A stretch of 64,000 nucleotides of DNA from Colwellia sp. 20A7 (GTDB taxonomy: Bacteria > Pseudomonadota > Gammaproteobacteria > Enterobacterales > Alteromonadaceae). Positions 2,413 to 64,000 of the stretch are shown here, piece by piece. Location of the stretch: the NCBI RefSeq assembly GCF_009832865.1, contig NZ_CP047130.1:4154001-4218000 (forward strand). Direction: 5' to 3'. The translations under genes were made by a program, and so were the position numbers. The notes below the pieces were generated by a model, which saw only the letters and a list, made by a program, of their open reading frames with translations, was not told where the DNA came from and made no database searches. Positions within the stretch are counted from its first letter, which is position 1, and the number at the start of each line of letters is the position of its first letter.

Positions 2413-3387
2413 ATGAATGAAATAATTTTATGTAATCGCACTTATAGTGCAAGCGTATTTAAAAATGAATGCGGCATTGGTGTTGAACTAGCTTCATCTC
2501 TTACTTGTGCCAACCCAGATATGATTATCGCTAATACGCCTTATTTATTAAAAAATGGTAATTCAGCTGTTGGTAAAACATCATTAGCAAAACTATCTAA
2601 TCCTTCAATTACCAAAAAACTGACGAGCTTAGCTTTATCTTTTGGTGGTGACAATTTGATTTCTCTTTCGTCCATTAGCTCTCAACTGGAAGAGTATAAT
2701 GTAGGGTTAATGGGTGCAGCCACCAGTGTCTACGCAAATAGAATAGGAGGTTTCGTTGATTCAGTTAAAAACTACCAATCTGCTTTAATGGAATATAGCC
2801 AAGTAGCAAAAAGTAAATCACCTCTTAAAGTAGCCGCTAAACAAAAAGCCAAAATGGCTTTCGATAAAATGCAAAATAGCTTTAAACACGAAGTTGATGT
2901 TGTAACAAGCCAAGTTAAATCGAGTCGCGGTACACCACTGACTAATTTTGACCGAGGTGCAAATATCGCCAAAAGTAGTAGAAATATGGCTAAATTAGAC
3001 ATAATGACACCTGTTCAAGCTGACAATATTGTTAAATTTACTAAATACGCAAAAGTTTTAGGCAATGGTCTTACCATTATCGACTTTGGTAGTCGTGTTG
3101 GTAATATTCAGAATAGCTATAAAGCAGGTGGTAACTGGGAACGTGAAATGTTTATTGAGTCTAGTAGCTTTGCTGCTAGTGCGACGGTAGGTATTGGTGC
3201 CGTCAACGCAGGAGCCGCAGCGCTAACATTTTTAATGGTAGCTACACCTGTTGGTTGGGTTGGTTTAATCGTGGGTGGGTTGGTTGTAGCTGGAGTTGCA
3301 GCGTCTTCCTCTATTATGACAAATAATTATATGAAAAATAATAGTGGCGATGCTTACGATGTTATTATGAAAGAGTTAACTCGCTGA
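2413..3387 (+). CDS. candidate membrane-disrupting toxin (hydrophobic C-terminal hairpin)
   Basis: A 324-residue protein I do not recognise by family. Residues 1-250 are soluble-looking with Ser/Lys-rich helices and no signal peptide. Residues 252-300 form one long hydrophobic stretch rich in Gly, Ala and Val with a central TPVGW turn, which suggests a membrane hairpin near the C-terminus. The last 24 residues are polar. A soluble body with a late hydrophobic hairpin is the layout of pore-forming bacteriocins and of membrane-disrupting type VI effectors (Tme-type). The stop overlaps the start of a small two-helix membrane protein (TGATG), as expected of a toxin and immunity pair. Function is inferred from layout only. 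Confidence 0.6.
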   Translation: MNEIILCNRTYSASVFKNECGIGVELASSLTCANPDMIIANTPYLLKNGNSAVGKTSLAKLSNPSITKKLTSLALSFGGDNLISLSSISSQLEEYNVGLMGAATSVYANRIGGFVDSVKNYQSALMEYSQVAKSKSPLKVAAKQKAKMAFDKMQNSFKHEVDVVTSQVKSSRGTPLTNFDRGANIAKSSRNMAKLDIMTPVQADNIVKFTKYAKVLGNGLTIIDFGSRVGNIQNSYKAGGNWEREMFIESSSFAASATVGIGAVNAGAAALTFLMVATPVGWVGLIVGGLVVAGVAASSSIMTNNYMKNNSGDAYDVIMKELTR

Positions 3388-54277: not shown

Positions 54278-54301
54278 TTAAACTTACGTAATAACATTTG
54301 T

Positions 54302-54341
54302 CGAATAACGCTTACCGAATAACGCTTATCGAATAAAAAGC
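54302..54341 (+). repeat. short tandem repeat, 14-bp unit
   Basis: CGAATAACGCTTAC and CGAATAACGCTTAT follow directly on each other, with a partial third unit CGAATAAAAAGC. It lies between the lipoprotein and epimerase genes. No function can be assigned. Confidence 0.7.
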
Positions 54342-57213: not shown

Positions 57214-59097
57214 ATGATGAACAAATATACATTATCAACAATAGCAACGTCTTTAGTACTTATCTTATCCGCTTGTGCTGATGGCGATAATGGCTCTGAT
57301 GGAGCCAACGGAACAAATGGCTATAGTGCTTTAATTGCACAAACAAAGTTACCAATCGGTAATGAGAATTGTAAAAGCAGTGGTGTACAAATTGACTCTG
57401 GTTTAGATGTTAACGGTAATAACATTTTAGATAACACAGAAATAACAGCAACTGAATATATCTGTGCGCCGAATACGACTGAAGTAAACAGCAACGAGCT
57501 ACTGACTAGTTTAAATAATCCTTGGTTTACGCAAGGTGCTGCCGAAATTGATGAAGCGACAAATATTTGGAACAAAATAGATACGCAATTAGCCAGCAAC
57601 GCTAAGGTATCTATTGCAAGCGCCTCTACAGCTGCTGAAATAACAGCGCTTAAAGGCTCAGCTAAAAATGTGATCTTATTTGTTGGTGATGGCATGGGGA
57701 TTTCAACTATCACCGCTGCCCGTATCTTAGATGGTCAGAACAAAGGCATGACAGGCGAAGAAAATCAGCTAAGCTTTGATAAATTCCCCTTTTCAGGGCT
57801 AGCAAAAACCTACAATGTTGATGCACAAACCCCTGATTCGGCTGGCACAATGACAGCTATGATGTCTGGCATAAAAACGGATGCCGGTGTGCTAGGTGTG
57901 AATGAAGATGTTGTGCGTGGTAATTGCACTAGCACTAAAAATACTGAAATGATCACTGCCTTAGAGTTAGCCGAAATTGCCGGGAAATCGACAGGTATTA
58001 TCTCTACTGCACGTATTACTCATGCAACGCCAGCGGCTACCTATGCAAAATCAGCAGAGCGTAACTGGGAAGATATATCCGATATGGATATAGATAACAA
58101 TGCAGAGCGCGCCGGCTGCGAAGATATTGCATTACAATTAGTTAACTTTGAAGCCAACTTAGAAGCACGATATGCAGGTGTAGATGTTGATGGTATTGAA
58201 GTAGTTATGGGTGGCGGTCGTCGTCATTTTTTACCTAAAGATGCTAGCTTCAATAGCATTGATGCTGTTAGCGCTATTGAGGGTGACCGTACTGATGGCC
58301 GTGACTTAACCGCTGAATGGCGATCTCACTACACTAATGGCGCTTATATAGTTGATCAAGCATCATTCGATGCAATTAACCCTGACACAACAACACGCGT
58401 ATTTGGTTTATTTAACGAATCACATATGCAATATGAAGCTGACCGCAACAACGATATTGCAGGTGAACCAAGCTTGTCAGAGATGACAGCAAAGGCAATT
58501 GGTATTCTTGATAACAATAAAGAAGGTTTCTTCCTTACCGTTGAATCAGGCCGTATTGACCACGCTCATCACGCAGGTAATGCTTACAACGCATTGAATG
58601 ATACCATTGAGTTTGCTAAAGCAGTACAAGCGGCAGTAGATGCAACTAGCCAAGAGGACACCTTAATTATTGTTACAGCAGACCACAGTCATGTCTTTAC
58701 CATTGCAGGTTACCCAAAACGTGGCAATCCTATTTTAGGTAAAGTTGTCGGTATTGGTGAAACAGAAGCAAGCCTAGCGTCTGACGATATGCCTTACACA
58801 ACCGTCGGTTACACTAATGGCCTTGGTTATAGAAACCTAGGTGCGGAAACAGATGCTGATGCGAGCTACCTTGCAGCGCCAGTAACGAGTCGAGTTGACT
58901 TAACAAGCGTTGATACAACCACTGCTGGCTTCCACCAAGAATCACTCGTACCACTAGGTAGTGAAACCCATGCTGGTGAAGATGTTGGAATTTTTGCAAT
59001 AGGACCTGGCGCTAATTTAATTACTGGTACTAATGAGCAAAACTTCATATTTCATGTGATGGACTATGCCGCCAATCTTTCAAACACATCAAAGTAG
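57214..59097 (+). CDS. alkaline phosphatase 2, lipoprotein with extra N-terminal domain
   Basis: A 627-residue phosphatase closely similar to the preceding one across its catalytic domain (VGDGMGIST, TPDSAGTMTAMMSG, SGRIDHAHHAG, TADHSHVF). It differs at the N-terminus: a lipoprotein signal (SLVLILSACADG), a Gly/Asn/Asp-rich stretch (GDNGSDGANGTNG) and a small domain with NENCKSSGVQIDSGLDVNGN and EITATEYICAP, the calcium-loop-like segment found in many marine lipoproteins. So copy 2 is likely membrane-anchored or surface-exposed while copy 1 is soluble. The His in HAHHAG replaces HGHHAG of copy 1 by one residue. Confidence 0.92.
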   Translation: MMNKYTLSTIATSLVLILSACADGDNGSDGANGTNGYSALIAQTKLPIGNENCKSSGVQIDSGLDVNGNNILDNTEITATEYICAPNTTEVNSNELLTSLNNPWFTQGAAEIDEATNIWNKIDTQLASNAKVSIASASTAAEITALKGSAKNVILFVGDGMGISTITAARILDGQNKGMTGEENQLSFDKFPFSGLAKTYNVDAQTPDSAGTMTAMMSGIKTDAGVLGVNEDVVRGNCTSTKNTEMITALELAEIAGKSTGIISTARITHATPAATYAKSAERNWEDISDMDIDNNAERAGCEDIALQLVNFEANLEARYAGVDVDGIEVVMGGGRRHFLPKDASFNSIDAVSAIEGDRTDGRDLTAEWRSHYTNGAYIVDQASFDAINPDTTTRVFGLFNESHMQYEADRNNDIAGEPSLSEMTAKAIGILDNNKEGFFLTVESGRIDHAHHAGNAYNALNDTIEFAKAVQAAVDATSQEDTLIIVTADHSHVFTIAGYPKRGNPILGKVVGIGETEASLASDDMPYTTVGYTNGLGYRNLGAETDADASYLAAPVTSRVDLTSVDTTTAGFHQESLVPLGSETHAGEDVGIFAIGPGANLITGTNEQNFIFHVMDYAANLSNTSK

Positions 59098-59131
59098 CGT
59101 TAGCTGAGTTAAGCAAAGTAAGTTAGATATC

Positions 59132-59165
59132 AATAAAGAGTGGGGCTAATGCTCTATTCTTTATT
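59132..59165 (+). terminator. terminator hairpin after the phosphatase operon
   Basis: Stem AATAAAGAGTGGGGC, loop TAAT, GCTCTATTCTTTATT: 15 pairs, three of them G-U. It ends the phosphatase transcript just before MITE copy B. Confidence 0.6.
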
Positions 59166-59169
59166 AGTT

Positions 59170-59331
59170 ATACCAGTTTCATTAATTAGGTGAACAATTT
59201 TATACGTAGAAAAAATTGACAAATACAAAGAATTTATTTCAATAACTCGTTGTGCTAATTATTAAATAAATAACGATGTAGTTGGTGATTTTAGCAAGTA
59301 AAAATGATCACATAGCTAGTGAGATTGGTAT
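59170..59331 (-). mobile_element. MITE-like element, copy B (162 bp)
   Basis: Reverse-oriented second copy of the element at 13115-13276, same length, ends ATACCAGTTTCATTAA and (inward) ATACCAATCTCACTAG. About 21 differences by eye. Sits in an intergenic gap and disrupts nothing visible. Confidence 0.75.
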
Positions 59332-59408
59332 TAATAAGCTAGCACTTCGCTGTCCAAGATTATGCTCACTATCACTTCGACCTATCCTTACATTAACAAA
59401 CTAATAAG

Positions 59409-60131
59409 ATGAATCAGATGAGAACACTAATACTTATTGCCGTAATGGCCCTTCCGGCTTTTGTGTCAGCTAATGACGACTGCCAACCTAGAAAAATCAT
59501 GGCGACATATAGCATTGAAGAAATAACCAAAGATCAGACATCACATAATAGAAATGACCTAATACTATTACGAACTCAAAATTCTGCTTTCCACATTAGT
59601 AACAAGACAGTCGCAACACAATGGACAAAGTTACCCAAGAATAATATGAAAAAAACATCCTACTTTATTGATGACAAGCGTGCGATTGAATACGAAGCAA
59701 CAAAGACAAACACTAATCAAACCTGGGATCATCATGCGCAGCTATTGCATCCAAAATTTACAGAGCAAGCAACGCTTATCGAAAAAACAGGTGAAGGTTG
59801 TGAAAAATTAGAACATTATCAACAAAAAGAAAAAACAAAAACTGTTGATATATGGTGGTTTCCTGAAGAGAAGATAATGAAACGTATGACAAGTGTATCC
59901 GCAGATAAAACGATAAACTGGCAATTAACTGAAGCTACGCATAACCAAAAAGTGATTCAACAACAATTGGATATACTATCATCTTATCAATCAACAGATT
60001 TTGCTGATATTGGTGATAATGAATCCGACCCATTTTTTAGAAAAATGATCAATCTAGGTTTTATTGAACATAGTGCTTCTGGATTTTATGACAGTAAAGG
60101 AAATTCATTACCTTCATCTCACCAACATTAG
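59409..60131 (+). CDS. exported protein of unknown function
   Basis: A 240-residue protein with a signal peptide (RTLILIAVMALPAFVSA) and a polar mature region: SIEEITKDQTSHNRNDLILL, FIDDKRAIEYEA, then QKEKTKTVDIWWFPEEKIMK and a C-terminal Ser/His-rich SSHQH. Lys/Thr/Glu composition and lone Trp pairs suggest a beta-rich domain. I do not recognise it. ATG 59409 or ATG 59418 could be the start. Confidence 0.75.
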   Translation: MNQMRTLILIAVMALPAFVSANDDCQPRKIMATYSIEEITKDQTSHNRNDLILLRTQNSAFHISNKTVATQWTKLPKNNMKKTSYFIDDKRAIEYEATKTNTNQTWDHHAQLLHPKFTEQATLIEKTGEGCEKLEHYQQKEKTKTVDIWWFPEEKIMKRMTSVSADKTINWQLTEATHNQKVIQQQLDILSSYQSTDFADIGDNESDPFFRKMINLGFIEHSASGFYDSKGNSLPSSHQH

Positions 60132-60155
60132 TATTAGATCAATGTTGTTAAGTTT

Positions 60156-60189
60156 TAACTAGCCTACATTGGTTTTTGCAGGCTAGTTA
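60156..60189. terminator. bidirectional terminator between convergent genes
   Basis: Perfect 10-bp stem TAACTAGCCT, 14-base loop, AGGCTAGTTA between a plus-strand and a minus-strand stop. Confidence 0.65.
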
Positions 60190-60196
60190 ACATACA

Positions 60197-60835
60197 TTAC
60201 TTAACGTAGGTGATAAAACTATCTGTTGAACGTCGAACTTTTTCTAAGTTAACTAGCCAATCGCCCTCTTCTTCACGATAGCCCAAAGGAAGTAATAATA
60301 CTGATTTTAAGTTACGCTCTTTAAGACCGAGTATTTCATCCACTTTTTCAGGTAAAAAACCTTCCATTGGCGTGCTGTCTACTTTCATTTCAGCCGCTGC
60401 AATTAACGCTGAGCCTAAACCGATATAAGCCTGACGTGCTGCATGTTCAAAGTTTGTTTGTGCATCACGTGCCGGATAAGTATTTAGTAACATTTGGCGG
60501 TAATCTTCCCAGCCTTGATTTTTGAATCCACGCTTTTCATTCACTAGATCAAACATAGTATTAATACGTTCCGCGGTGTAATTGTCCCATGCGGCAAATA
60601 CTAATAAGTGAGAGCAGTCTGTTACTTGTTGTTGACTCCATGCATGAGGCAAAATTTGTGCGCGTACTTCAGGGTTAGTTACCACAATAACGTCATAAGG
60701 CTGTAAACCACTAGAGCTAGCACTCAAACGAATAGACTCTAAAATAAAATCAACTTTTTCTTCGCTGACAGCTTTGCTCGGATTCATTTTTTTTGTGGCA
60801 TAACGCCACTGCAGATTTTTTAATAACTCAGACAT
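60197..60835 (-). CDS. NAD(P)H-dependent nitroreductase-family flavoprotein
   Basis: A 212-residue FMN oxidoreductase: LQWRYATKKMNPSKAVSEEK, RLSASSSGLQPYDVIVVTNP, HAARQAYIGLGSALIAAAEM and LLPLGYREEEGDW. This fits the NfsB-type branch of nitroreductases. It can reduce nitroaromatics or quinones; the native substrate is unknown. Monocistronic; convergent with the preceding gene. Confidence 0.92.
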   Translation of the reverse strand: MSELLKNLQWRYATKKMNPSKAVSEEKVDFILESIRLSASSSGLQPYDVIVVTNPEVRAQILPHAWSQQQVTDCSHLLVFAAWDNYTAERINTMFDLVNEKRGFKNQGWEDYRQMLLNTYPARDAQTNFEHAARQAYIGLGSALIAAAEMKVDSTPMEGFLPEKVDEILGLKERNLKSVLLLPLGYREEEGDWLVNLEKVRRSTDSFITYVK

Positions 60836-61164
60836 ATATTTACTCTGTTAATAGTGATGGGTTTGAAATTGAGCTGATTAAGTATAATTTCAAGTGCTAA
60901 GTATGATTTTGTGAATAACGGGTAACAATATTCAGCAAAAAATCTCACAAACATAGCTTACATTCAATTTTACCAAGTTGTTTAAGCAGATAGAATACGA
61001 CTCAAGGCATTACTTATTAAGTTGTAAATCTTGCATAAGCTAATGATATAATTAATAAAGTTGATTATTCTTGAACACAGAAAATACCAAGCGATAATTT
61101 TTGGTGTAAATAGATTTGTTTATGTTTATTCTGAAGATTGAGAAAGAGAGAGAGAAATTAAAAG
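60836..61164. other. 329-bp region between nitroreductase and tRNA-derived repeats
   Basis: Holds the nitroreductase promoter region and the end of the transcript from the tRNA operon. No open frame. A short GA tract (GAGAAAGAGAGAGAG) lies just beside the last repeat. I see no convincing terminator for the minus-strand tRNA transcript here. Confidence 0.4.
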
Positions 61165-61688
61165 TGGTCGGTGATGCAAGATTCGAACTTGCGACTGAAC
61201 TTGATAGCACCCAAACCAAAATTTTGCTAATGAGAAGTTAATGTCAATAACGCTGTAGAATTAGTGTATATAGAGTTTGGCATAAAGTTAAAAAGTGGTC
61301 GGTGATGCAAGATTCGAACTTACGACTGAACTTGGTAGTACCCAAACCAAAATTTGGCTAATGAGGAGTTAATGTCAATAACGCTGTAGAATTAGTGTAT
61401 ATATAGTTTGGCATAAAGTTAAAAAGTGGTCGGTGATGCAAGATTCGAACTTGCGACTGAACTTGGTAGTACCCAAACCAAAATTTGGCTAATGAGAAGT
61501 TAATGTCAATAACGCTGTAGAATTAGTGTATATAGAGTTTGGCATAAAGTTAAAAAGTGGTCGGTGATGCAAGATTCAAACTTGCGACTGAACTTGCTAG
61601 CACCCAAACCAAAATTTGGCTAATGAGAAGTCAATGTCAATAATGCTGTAGAATTAGTGTATATAGAGTTTGGCGTAAAGTTAAAAAG
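61165..61688 (-). repeat. four tandem 131-bp units carrying the 3' end of tRNA-Pro
   Basis: Units begin (plus-strand coordinates) at 61165, 61296, 61427 and 61558; each is exactly 131 bp and the last abuts the true tRNA-Pro gene at 61689. The first 31 bases of each unit equal the T arm, acceptor 3' strand and CCA of tRNA-Pro, with at most one change (units 2 and 4). A further 10 bases (ACCCAAACCA, anticodon loop) and GCTAAT near the tRNA 5' end are also kept, but the D arm, anticodon stem and acceptor 5' strand are lost, so no unit can fold as a tRNA. The units lie downstream of tRNA-Pro on its own strand. The other 90-100 bases per unit are conserved between units and match nothing else I see. 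Confidence 0.9.
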
Positions 61689-61765
61689 TGGTCGGTGATG
61701 CAAGATTCGAACTTGCGACCCCTTGGACCCAAACCAAGTGCGCTACCAAGCTGCGCTAATCACCG
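61689..61765 (-). tRNA. proM: tRNA-Pro (anticodon UGG)
   Basis: 77 bases with CCA encoded. Starts CGGTGATTAGCGCAGC, anticodon loop TTTGGGT (TGG), T arm GCAAGTTCGAATCTTGC, acceptor end ATCACCGACCA. Close to E. coli tRNA-Pro. Second gene of a tRNA-His, tRNA-Pro operon (44 bp apart); a tandem array derived from it follows. Confidence 0.95.
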
Positions 61766-61809
61766 ACATTTATAACTTTTTATCTATTACTTCAGGAAGA
61801 AGCAAAAGA

Positions 61810-61886
61810 TGGGGTGGCTAAAGGGACTTGAACCCTCGACAACCGGAATCACAATCCGGGGCTCTACCAACTGAGCTATAGCCACC
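61810..61886 (-). tRNA. hisR: tRNA-His (anticodon GUG)
   Basis: 77 bases with the extra G at -1 and CCA encoded: GGTGGCTATAGCTCAGTTGG at the start, anticodon GTG in ATTGTGATT, end AGCCACCCCA. Nearly identical to E. coli tRNA-His. First gene of the operon. Confidence 0.95.
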
Positions 61887-61931
61887 ACTGATTTTTACTA
61901 GTATTGTTTCTAGGTTTGAAACAATGCGCGG

Positions 61932-61960
61932 ATTTTAATGAGTTATCGCGCTTTGTGCAA
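61932..61960 (-). promoter_or_regulatory. promoter of the tRNA-His/tRNA-Pro operon
   Basis: Minus strand: TTGCAC, exactly 17 bp, TAAAAT, followed by a GC-rich discriminator CCGCGC. The GC discriminator is typical of growth-rate and ppGpp-controlled stable RNA promoters. Confidence 0.8.
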
Positions 61961-61971
61961 GTAAAATAGTA

Positions 61972-62011
61972 ATTAATCGAAGAGATTTGCTATTATTTTT
62001 CTTCGATTAAT
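61972..62011 (-). terminator. terminator hairpin of the serC gene
   Basis: Perfect 12-bp stem ATTAATCGAAGA and TCTTCGATTAAT with a 16-base loop; the minus-strand run after it (TACTATTTTAC) is moderately T-rich. It separates serC from the tRNA promoter immediately downstream. Confidence 0.6.
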
Positions 62012-62071
62012 CTTACTTGTTAAAAATAAGCGCCTATTCACGCTTTTATTACGATAAATACTAGCATCATA

Positions 62072-63199
62072 TTACGCTGTCGCTTGTTGATAGGCCCACG
62101 TTAACCAAGGTAGTAAGGCAACTAAATCAGATTTTTCAACGGTTGCGCCAGCCCAAATACGTAAACCTGCTGGAGCATCACGGTAAGCTCCTATATCAAA
62201 AGCAACACCTTCATGATCGAGTAAGTTAATAATTGTTTTCACTTGCTCAGCATCCGCTTTTAATTCAAAGCATACGCTGGTATTTGAACAAATTTCAGGT
62301 CTTTTGGCTAAGAAATTGATCCAGTCATTCTGCGCAACGAACTCCGATAGTACTTCTAGGTTAGCTTCACTTTTTGCAACTGCCGCAGACAAGCCGCCAA
62401 TTTCATCAACCCAATTCAATGCATCAAGGTAATCTTCAACGCATAACATGGACGGTGTATTAATGGTGGCGCCTTTAAAAATGCCATCAATTAATTTATT
62501 ATTTTTGGTTAAAGCAAAGATCTTAGGGATTGGCCAAGCTGGTGTATACGACTCTAATCTTGCTACCGCTCGAGGGCTTAAAATTAACATACCATGAGCA
62601 CCCTCACCACCGAGCACTTTTTGCCAGCTAAAGGTTGCCACATCTATTTTGTTCCAATCAAGATCCATAGCAAATACAGCACTAGTGGCATCGCAAATGG
62701 TTAATCCCGTGCGTTGATCACTGATCCAATCGGCATTTTCAACTTTCACGCCTGACGTTGTTCCATTCCAAGTAAAAATAATATCGTGGTCAGGATTAGC
62801 TTGAGAAAAGTCAGGTAAATCGCCATATTCACCAGTAAAGATACGAGCATCGTCTAATTTTAGTTGTTTAGCGATATCTGTGCCCCAACCCGAGCCAAAT
62901 GACTCCCATGCAAAAACATCAACTGGACGCTGTCCTAGCAATGACCACATGGCCATTTCCATTGCCCCGGTATCTGAGCCTGGGACAATACCCACTTTAT
63001 AGCCTTCAGGTAAGTTTAATAAGCGTGAGGTTTCAGTAATCGCTTTTTGTAAACGTGCTTTACCGATAGCACTACGATGTGAACGACCTAAACTATCAGT
63101 ATTAAGTGCAGCAAGATCATAACCGGGACGTTTTGCACATGGGCCTGAAGAAAAGTTAGGGTTGGCCGGTTTAATATTCGGTTTAGTGTTCGTTTTCAT
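62072..63199 (-). CDS. serC: phosphoserine aminotransferase (SerC-type, TIGR01365 branch)
   Basis: A 375-residue PLP aminotransferase. Features: [50 protein letters not shown] and the PLP lysine in [14 protein letters not shown], then [10 protein letters not shown]. This is the branch common in alphaproteobacteria and some marine gammaproteobacteria, not the E. coli SerC form. It converts 3-phosphohydroxypyruvate to phosphoserine. The ATG follows AAGGAAC. A terminator hairpin follows. Confidence 0.88.
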
Positions 63200-63422
63200 T
63201 AATGTTCCTTGATCAATCGATCATTGTCGCTACTTACCTTATATCAGTAAATAACCTGCACAACAGCTAATTCTGTAAAATTGGGTAAATAGTGCCTCAA
63301 TTCTAATAAGCATTCAATAGGGTTACTGTAGTTTTACACAAGATATAAATCAGGTTTTCATCTTTATCAATTTACATAAATTACTGCTAAGATTAATATC
63401 AGGCTAACCGCAGGAAAACCTT

Positions 63423-63953
63423 ATGTCATTAGATAAAATTACCGCACAAATAAAAGCGCAGAGAGATAAAATTCCACCTGTTGAATTATGGAACCCTGAT
63501 TATTGTGGTGAAATCGATCTACAAATAAAAGCCAATGGTGATTGGTTTTATGCAGGTACAATTTTCAAACGTCCTGCCTTGGTAAAATTATTAGCCTCGG
63601 TGCTAAAAAAAGAACAGGACGAGTATTATCTTGTTACGCCCGTTGAAAAAATAAAAATTACTGTTGAAGATGCCCCTTTTGTTTTAACACAATGGCGTTG
63701 GCAAGGTGAAAGTCAGCCAACCATGGTAGTCACTAATAATGTCGGTAATGAATTTACGCTAGATAATAACCATCCAATAACAATCAATGATAATGGTGAA
63801 CTCTATGTTACTGTTCGACGTGAATTGTTGGCCAAGGTACACAGAAATGTTTATTACCAATGGGTAGACTTGGCCAAAGAAGTTAACACAGGCAAAGACA
63901 CTGAATTAACCTTTAACAGTGCTGGGTATCAATTTAGTTTGGGAAAAATTTAA
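63423..63953 (+). CDS. DUF1285 protein
   Basis: A 176-residue soluble protein: PVELWNPDYCGEIDLQIKAN, DWFYAGTIFKRPALVKLLAS, YYLVTPVEKIKITVEDAPF and VTVRRELLAKVHRNVYYQWV. It matches the DUF1285 family, a two-domain beta-rich fold of unknown role. The ATG follows CAGGAAAAC. Confidence 0.92.
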   Translation: MSLDKITAQIKAQRDKIPPVELWNPDYCGEIDLQIKANGDWFYAGTIFKRPALVKLLASVLKKEQDEYYLVTPVEKIKITVEDAPFVLTQWRWQGESQPTMVVTNNVGNEFTLDNNHPITINDNGELYVTVRRELLAKVHRNVYYQWVDLAKEVNTGKDTELTFNSAGYQFSLGKI

Positions 63954-63968
63954 AATTGCGACTTAAGT

Positions 63969-63986
63969 TAAGCTGACGTCAGCTTA
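63969..63986. promoter_or_regulatory. 18-bp perfect palindrome
   Basis: TAAGCTGACGTCAGCTTA, fully symmetric with no loop, 16 bp after the DUF1285 stop near the window edge. Without a loop it is a poor terminator stem; it could be an operator for a gene beyond the edge. Confidence 0.45.
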
Positions 63987-64000
63987 GGATACCGTTAATG

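Follow-up and report, generated by a model that had tools for sequence, protein, structure and literature searches.

A tandem array of tRNA-Pro 3′ ends in Colwellia sp. 20A7 and its relation to rtT-type tRNA trailers

The array behind tRNA-Pro(TGG)

The window analysed here is a stretch of 64,000 nucleotides from Colwellia sp. 20A7, whose genome is a single contig of 4.58 Mb. On the minus strand it carries, in order, serC (phosphoserine transaminase; 62072..63199; NCBIfam NF002841, 642.5 bits), a candidate sigma-70 promoter (61932..61959), tRNA-His(GTG) (61810..61885; ARAGORN; Rfam 67.9 bits), which is the first gene in a two-tRNA cluster, tRNA-Pro(TGG) (61689..61765; ARAGORN; Rfam 63.9 bits), four repeat units and, after 329 bases, a gene for a nitroreductase-family protein (60197..60835; Pfam PF00881, E 7e-23; NCBIfam matches under cut-offs). 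The candidate promoter, TGCACA-16-TAAAAT followed by a GC-rich stretch, is a consensus match only, from a scan whose 12 sites are about the chance level (shuffle mean 9.8, sd 3.5). A consensus scan for terminator-like sites found one in the whole stretch, in the serC/tRNA-His interval, and none between tRNA-Pro and the repeat units, which probably belong to the same transcript as the tRNA. By eye, none of the seven ORFs listed at 58000-64000 looks like an integrase (family search identified two of them), and no mobile element was recognised at the array site. Phage records matching the stretch number 246; the 20 of these that were listed match within the tRNA part, and the array is matched by none of those listed.

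tRNA-Pro(TGG), the origin of the repeated 3′ end, is directly followed on the same strand by four units of 131 bp. Numbered from the tRNA outwards, and all on the minus strand, these are unit 1 (61558..61688), unit 2 (61427..61557), unit 3 (61296..61426) and the most distal, unit 4 (61165..61295). Each consists of a 76-base AU-rich spacer, then a piece of the anticodon loop with a non-tRNA insert, and then a 31-base tRNA-Pro end including CCA. The 31-base tails lie at 61558-61588 (one mismatch to the tRNA-Pro 3′ end), 61427-61457 (exact), 61296-61326 (one mismatch) and 61165-61195 (exact). The anticodon-loop and insert part, located by pattern search and alignment at 61589..61612, 61458-61481, 61327-61350 and 61196-61219 in units 1–4, reads TTGGTTTGGGT followed by G/A-CTA-N, CAAG and TTCA.

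A first-pass annotation of this DNA had described four exact periods of 131 bp, starting at 61165, 61296, 61427 and 61558. The spacing and starts hold, while the sequences are not exact copies, being 93.1–97.7% identical in pairs; the 31-base tRNA-Pro end recurs in every unit, as it had noted. It had also read in each unit decayed pieces of the anticodon loop and of the 5′ end, and had taken each unit to derive from a once-complete tRNA. The anticodon-loop piece (TTGGTTTGGGT....CCAAG) is borne out, its alignment score against tRNA bases 1–46 being equalled in 0, 0, 1 and 1 of 1000 shuffles for units 1–4. The 5′ half is undetectable: the score for tRNA bases 1–29 is equalled in 345–428 of 1000 shuffles, and in the unit displayed the six bases ATTAGC make up the whole alignment. 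Descent from a complete tRNA is not visible in the 5′ half of the 20A7 units, though 5′ halves are apparent by eye in Leu and Val units elsewhere.

Tandem Repeats Finder (TRF) gives a single report for the array (61160-61719; period 131, 4.3 copies, 96% matches, score 1036). When a motif taken from inside the unit is sought with up to two mismatches, the window has four occurrences, all perfect, and 100 dinucleotide shuffles have none. Neither ARAGORN nor the Rfam tRNA model calls a tRNA within the units, whose cloverleaf thus goes unrecognised, and no ORF of at least 25 aa with an ATG start was reported in the array. The four units differ at 10 columns in total: two of 31 in the tail, six of 76 in the spacer and two of 24 in the anticodon and insert part. 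The tail shows no clear deficit of substitutions, as is expected of a recently homogenised array.

Tail units in Colwellia and beyond

The closest named relative of 20A7 by serC is Colwellia sp. C2M11 (taken as G028; 97% aa identity). Its site is empty: the flanks, 96.1% and 94.2% identical to those of 20A7, are joined at a single tail, leaving no units. At such a site a loss through tail-to-tail exchange cannot be distinguished from a gain through insertion, so the change between the two genomes can have gone either way. C2M11 carries three Val-type units and no Pro-type unit. Around serC in 80 named loci there were no further arrays; ARAGORN called a tRNA in seven of the 80, none of these with orphan tails. 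A limited sample of the open-access literature, which is weak evidence of absence, gave no report of such arrays in Colwellia.

Recurrence was followed by a genus-level locus comparison (20 stretches, three from 20A7 itself) and a tail search (49 sequences). The Pro motif, with up to three mismatches, occurs in 11 of 39 genomes of the genus including 20A7, and the reversed control gives none. The first-pass annotation had named as grounds for doubt the array's absence from all close relatives combined with read evidence of an assembly artefact, and had proposed comparing units and searching for their non-tRNA part. The closest named relative is without the array, but Pro-type units recur in the genus, with differing periods. 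Among 394 sampled genomes of the order the motif occurs in two, both from the genus of 20A7; the sample contains one more genome of that genus, which is without it. Pro-, Val- or Lys-type units taken together occur in 18 of the 39 genus genomes.

Unit number and spacer change freely among the tRNA-Pro, tRNA-Lys and tRNA-His loci. Behind tRNA-Pro, L044 has a period of 128 bp, L045 one of 112 bp and L046 periods of 115 and 130 bp, and in L047, L048 and L054 the period is 89-90 bp; across other genus genomes and the second Pro cluster of 20A7 the periods are 128, 112, 115/130 and 89-91 bp. A period of 99 bp is found behind tRNA-Lys and one of 96 bp behind tRNA-His. The tRNA-Pro loci L041, L049 and L053 have one extra tail only, and many tRNA-Pro loci of the genus have none; tRNA-His tails occur in L037, L052, L053 and L056, and tRNA-Lys tails in L043. 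Several units are visibly decaying, and units differ between genomes. Genome G007 has practically one 90-bp unit at both its loci A and B, with a single difference across the 60-nt spacer, an apparent case of spread between loci.

To count displaced ends genome-wide, the last and first 30 bases of all ARAGORN tRNAs in the loci fetched were sought outside tRNA genes with up to seven mismatches. Five genomes were scanned: 20A7 (G000), G010, G014, G044 (another genus of the same family) and G068 (another family). In 20A7, with 69 tRNAs and 69 Rfam matches, there are 24 orphan tails in nine groups against three orphan heads, and the tails belong to seven tRNA species (Pro, Lys, Val, Leu, Ser, Thr and Gln). 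In the other four genomes part of the tRNA loci was scanned, and the Rfam search covered 150 candidates per genome. Their counts are at least 4 tails and 2 heads in G010 (78 tRNAs scanned; at least 88 Rfam matches), at least 12 and 5 in G014 (61; at least 67), at least 5 and 4 in G044 (63; at least 79), where one of the five tails, L239, is a tRNA-Val cut by the contig end, and at least 10 and 0 in G068 (114; at least 141). The sum is at least 55 orphan tails in 24 groups against at least 14 orphan heads in 11 groups, and reversed-pattern controls gave none in any of the five genomes. Counted by groups, 24 to 11, the imbalance is modest. Some groups have both ends: three of the four Leu units of G014 retain a recognisable head, and 5′ pieces are visible by eye in Leu and Val units.

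Other loci show further arrangements. In L109 (10796-11792, 20A7 C1:3273795-3274791, and the stretch behind), five tandem tRNA-Lys genes are followed by several tail units at a spacing of about 97-99 bp and in graded states of decay. In L092 (762-1672, minus strand), also from 20A7, two genes lie between two copies of a tRNA-Thr tail; from their sequence we take them to encode a Fur-like regulator and a MerC-like protein.

Relation to E. coli rtT

The rtT element is known mainly as a feature of enterobacterial tRNA operons. Likeness to it had been suggested for the 20A7 array by the first-pass annotation, and the likeness holds for architecture and not for family. Searching E. coli MG1655 with the 3′-terminal 19 bases of tRNA-Tyr gives exact tails at +178, +356 and +534 and a further one at -119, before tyrV; the repeats of the tyrT operon (Rfam RF00391) are annotated rttR/tpr. 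Under the criterion of 30 bases and seven mismatches, which misses RtT-type tails, the same genome yields the gene itself only. As in E. coli, the 20A7 units lie in tandem directly behind a tRNA gene, on the same strand, each ending in the 3′ end of that tRNA including CCA. The E. coli units, however, have a 19-nt tail and a 67-nt core between the halves of the T-loop, whereas those of 20A7 have a 31-nt tail, an uninterrupted T-arm and a piece of the anticodon loop, and lack the RtT core. The Rfam RtT model gives no match at E <= 10 in 60900-62100, against four matches of 132.9-137.5 bits in the E. coli control (L311). The RtT core (CGRCCYGAAGGGYGA... in the T-loop before the tail) has no match on either strand of the 20A7 genome, searched with a Colwellia-type pattern (up to three mismatches) and a general one (exact). 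The 20A7 array is thus rtT-type by architecture and outside the RtT family by Rfam model and core. The analogy is right, and the functions proposed with it, as substrate, decoy or sponge, are unproven.

An RtT-like core does occur behind tRNA-Pro in two of the 39 Colwellia genomes, G016 (three sites) and G026 (one site). In G016 it is 70 nt long and occupies the same T-loop position as in E. coli, and one copy lies within a Pro-type unit that has an insert of the kind seen in the window. Core-to-core alignments of two of the four E. coli cores with three Colwellia cores score 29-35, above all 1000 shuffles in six of six comparisons (best shuffle 26), the printed alignment of the first pair spanning just 17 bases. 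The Rfam RtT model gives no match at E <= 1 in Colwellia L025, L052 and L053. The 70-nt cores were seen in L039/L053 (G016, tRNA-Pro locus B) and L037 (G026), the three G016 units being about 160 bp apart; CGACCYGAAGGGCGAAG is common to them and E. coli rtT, at a nearly equal offset.

Across the order sample, the core pattern has 14 sites (L316-L329) in 9 of 394 genomes and 5 of 114 genera. The pattern itself demands GTAATC, and the test lies in the bases after it: from AATC onwards, 19 bases match the terminus of the closest tRNA upstream exactly at 13 of the 14 sites and with a one-base difference at the other (Tyr, Arg and Pro exact, Lys with the single difference). Many of the sites also have stretches complementary to the tail further upstream. 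Read from these sequences, the RtT core is a T-loop insert that at 14 of 14 sites precedes the tail of the upstream tRNA, be it Tyr, Arg, Lys or Pro. In view of the T-loop link between E. coli and Colwellia, RtT looks like an insert borne by the tails of various tRNAs. The spread of rtT over tRNA species is already partly known (PMC4986893).

The literature offers further parallels. Similarity of rtT to candidate attenuators of the BIME type has been noted (PMC2965389), and a table for Salmonella Paratyphi A and Typhi lists an rtT RNA with a 175-bp VNTR difference (PMC2658671). The leuZ 3′ETS of E. coli is described as a sponge RNA and is itself a 53-nt spacer (PMC8166272). It resembles the present units in place, being a functional RNA cut from the trailer of a tRNA operon; it differs in that the excerpt of PMC8166272 has no description of it as tandem copies of a tRNA end. 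The 20A7 array stands behind the second gene of a tRNA-His–tRNA-Pro cluster. A highly repetitive tRNA-Pro/tRNA-His cluster was reportedly described in Photobacterium phosphoreum by Giroux et al. in 1988; going by its title, this too is a repeated tRNA-Pro/His region in a marine gammaproteobacterium.

Conserved blocks and the origin of the units

The Val units of 20A7 and G014 have in common CACCTTCTRCTCTTTACANCCCGCACC, in which CACC and the anticodon-loop letters are kept and the rest is unlike tRNA-Val. This 27-nt block, with the start of the T-arm that follows it, occurs in six of the 39 genus genomes. Its identity is 0.84-0.97 (mean 0.906) over the 15 genome pairs, against a mean of 0.433 for the last spacer of the same operons, a figure lowered by unequal lengths and including the Asp-Val spacer for G030; the block is higher in all 15 pairs. 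For G000, G016 and G028 among themselves (three pairs), the spacer itself reaches 0.80-0.85. The set is biased in that a pattern built from the tail-scan genomes G000 and G014 brought in the other four of the six; between G000 and G014 themselves, the block is 0.91 and the spacer 0.34 identical. The 49 columns left of the block have an identity of 0.325 without gaps (23 units). Conversion from the gene cannot maintain the block, because the functional tRNA-Val is without it. Seven units with the rewritten block stand in the tRNA-Val operon of 20A7 (L101) and six in L222 of G014.

Of the 39 genomes, 8 have the Lys pattern, AAAGCCWAGGCTTTTAACC plus TTCAAA, without a mismatch; this pattern misses 20A7, though 20A7 has Lys units of its own. 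The 15-nt Pro insert is 0.73-0.87 identical against 0.62-0.84 for the His-Pro spacer, higher in four of six genome pairs and lower in two, and its conservation is not clearly above that of the spacer. Conservation of such non-tRNA blocks suggests selection on some units as well, presumably at the RNA level given their trailer position; the hint of such a role is strong for Val and weak for Pro.

Folding was compared for Val and Pro. The Val units give no consensus fold (RNAalifold energy 0; 21 distinct rows of 23). Their 5-bp T-stem is intact in 6 of the 21 distinct units, and the remaining 15 have at least one mismatched pair, which argues against a general role as T-arm substrates. A common Pro fold has a z-score of -3.12, with none of 200 column shuffles as low, and was set aside as evidence of covariation, since its pairs hardly vary and include the tRNA T-arm. 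That set comprised 18 of the 22 rows collected and is without further near-identical or edge units; dropped from it were three rows whose ends had decayed and G016B2, which has the T-loop insert. By eye, hairpins that would mask part of the anticodon loop are seen in Lys (AAGCC/GGCTT), Pro (ACCAA/TTGGT) and His (ATCAC/GTGAT) units.

On balance we consider it probable, with modest confidence, that the 20A7 array is an rtT-type tRNA-trailer array in which degenerate tRNA-Pro copies, transcribed with the operon, are amplified and lost by exchange between their tails. A degenerate copy behind the gene, its anticodon arm disrupted by an insert and its 3′ end intact, would have been amplified in tandem. 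Unequal homologous exchange between the identical or near-identical tails of about 30 bases would then add or remove whole units, and its products would retain an intact tRNA. The His-Pro transcript likely includes the array, and cleavage in the AU-rich spacers followed by trimming may give rtT-like, CCA-ended fragments; copy number itself would have little or no function. With every unit ending as the gene itself does, arrays would come and go cleanly, and tails would exceed heads because tail exchange leaves an intact tRNA while head exchange need not. Homologous exchange seems in this way to account for changes in copy number, the seamless absence in C2M11, the homogenised units and the tail excess. 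What stands against purely neutral exchange is the rewritten 27-nt block shared by Val units of six genomes, which exchange does not explain; two forces, homologous exchange and selection of some units, seem to be at work.

The main rival gives the units themselves a purpose, as a selected class of small RNAs cut from tRNA precursors and serving as decoys for tRNA enzymes or as sponges like the leuZ 3′ETS, with tandem copies raising the dose. For the 20A7 array we regard it as possible and rather unlikely, behind tail exchange. Its case is the blocks common to different genomes (the Val identities in six of 39, the Lys pattern in eight and the Pro insert in 11) and the precedents of rtT and of the leuZ sponge (PMC8166272). 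It draws too on a stretch in RtT-type units complementary to the tail, which tracks the cognate tail with a mean of 7.5 nt against 5.19 nt for other tails; the 18 distinct units behind this comparison are not independent (several are tRNA-Tyr), near-variants are among the other tails, and the complement is just 4-6 nt in the four copies from Colwellia. The Pro insert, the kind present in the window, is not clearly above its spacer, however, the Val units have no consensus fold and mostly mismatched T-stems, sets found by pattern are biased to conservation, and C2M11 lives without the array.

Attachment is another way in which a tRNA 3′ end can be repeated. The units would then be attR-like scars of small elements that had integrated in the 3′ half of the tRNA, each scar covering the anticodon loop and all that follows it up to the 3′ end. 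The part from anticodon loop to CCA is the usual identity block of tRNA-targeting integrases, and Pro, Lys and His units keep it. Two loci elsewhere have this look: in G010 L056 a 281-bp direct repeat (1610-1890 and 3078-3355), which starts in the tRNA-His anticodon arm and spans tRNA-Pro, flanks a gene for an OMP beta-barrel protein, and in G044 L241 (1-126, minus strand) an exact tRNA-Val 3′ half from the anticodon loop follows unrelated sequence. Yet the units measure merely 89-131 bp, inspection by eye of the ORFs listed for two stretches revealed no integrase, and the Pro, Lys and His units have, by eye, an insert between anticodon and T-arm that is unexpected in a freshly displaced 3′ half. 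The 5′ pieces seen by eye in Val and Leu units point instead to duplication of whole tRNAs, and we judge such scars highly improbable here. That the units are dead tRNA duplicates without special dynamics, or an assembly artefact, would fit their variation between genomes and the visible decay of several; it is scarcely credible for a single-contig genome in which the units have private differences (the 10 variable columns), with similar units in many genomes and seamless loss or gain in C2M11. For Val, the conserved block also speaks against plain decay.

Whatever their origin, the units matter more across the genus than at the single 20A7 locus: rtT-type architecture lies behind seven tRNA species in one genome, and three unit types occur in 18 of 39 genus genomes. 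Units with conserved non-tRNA blocks offer comparative material on tRNA trailers as selected RNAs or as by-products of recombination. It is possible, though rather unlikely, that many tRNA operons of marine gammaproteobacteria are followed by trailer RNAs of one class, selected and tandem-dosed pseudo-tRNAs of which E. coli RtT with its mobile T-loop core would be a special case. If so, a conserved insert would rewire the anticodon arm while the 3′ end is kept.

Some details lie beside these questions. At a tRNA-Ser locus of 20A7 (L104) with two tail units, three terminator-like hairpins of differing sequence follow the tRNA and each tail, as judged by eye. In G068 (L259), a tRNA-Phe-like gene with an enlarged anticodon arm, called as tRNA-Val by ARAGORN, is followed by tail units each with an apparent terminator hairpin, again by eye. 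Within the window, TRF also reports a short 14-bp tandem repeat, AATAACGCTTATCG, at 54283-54336.
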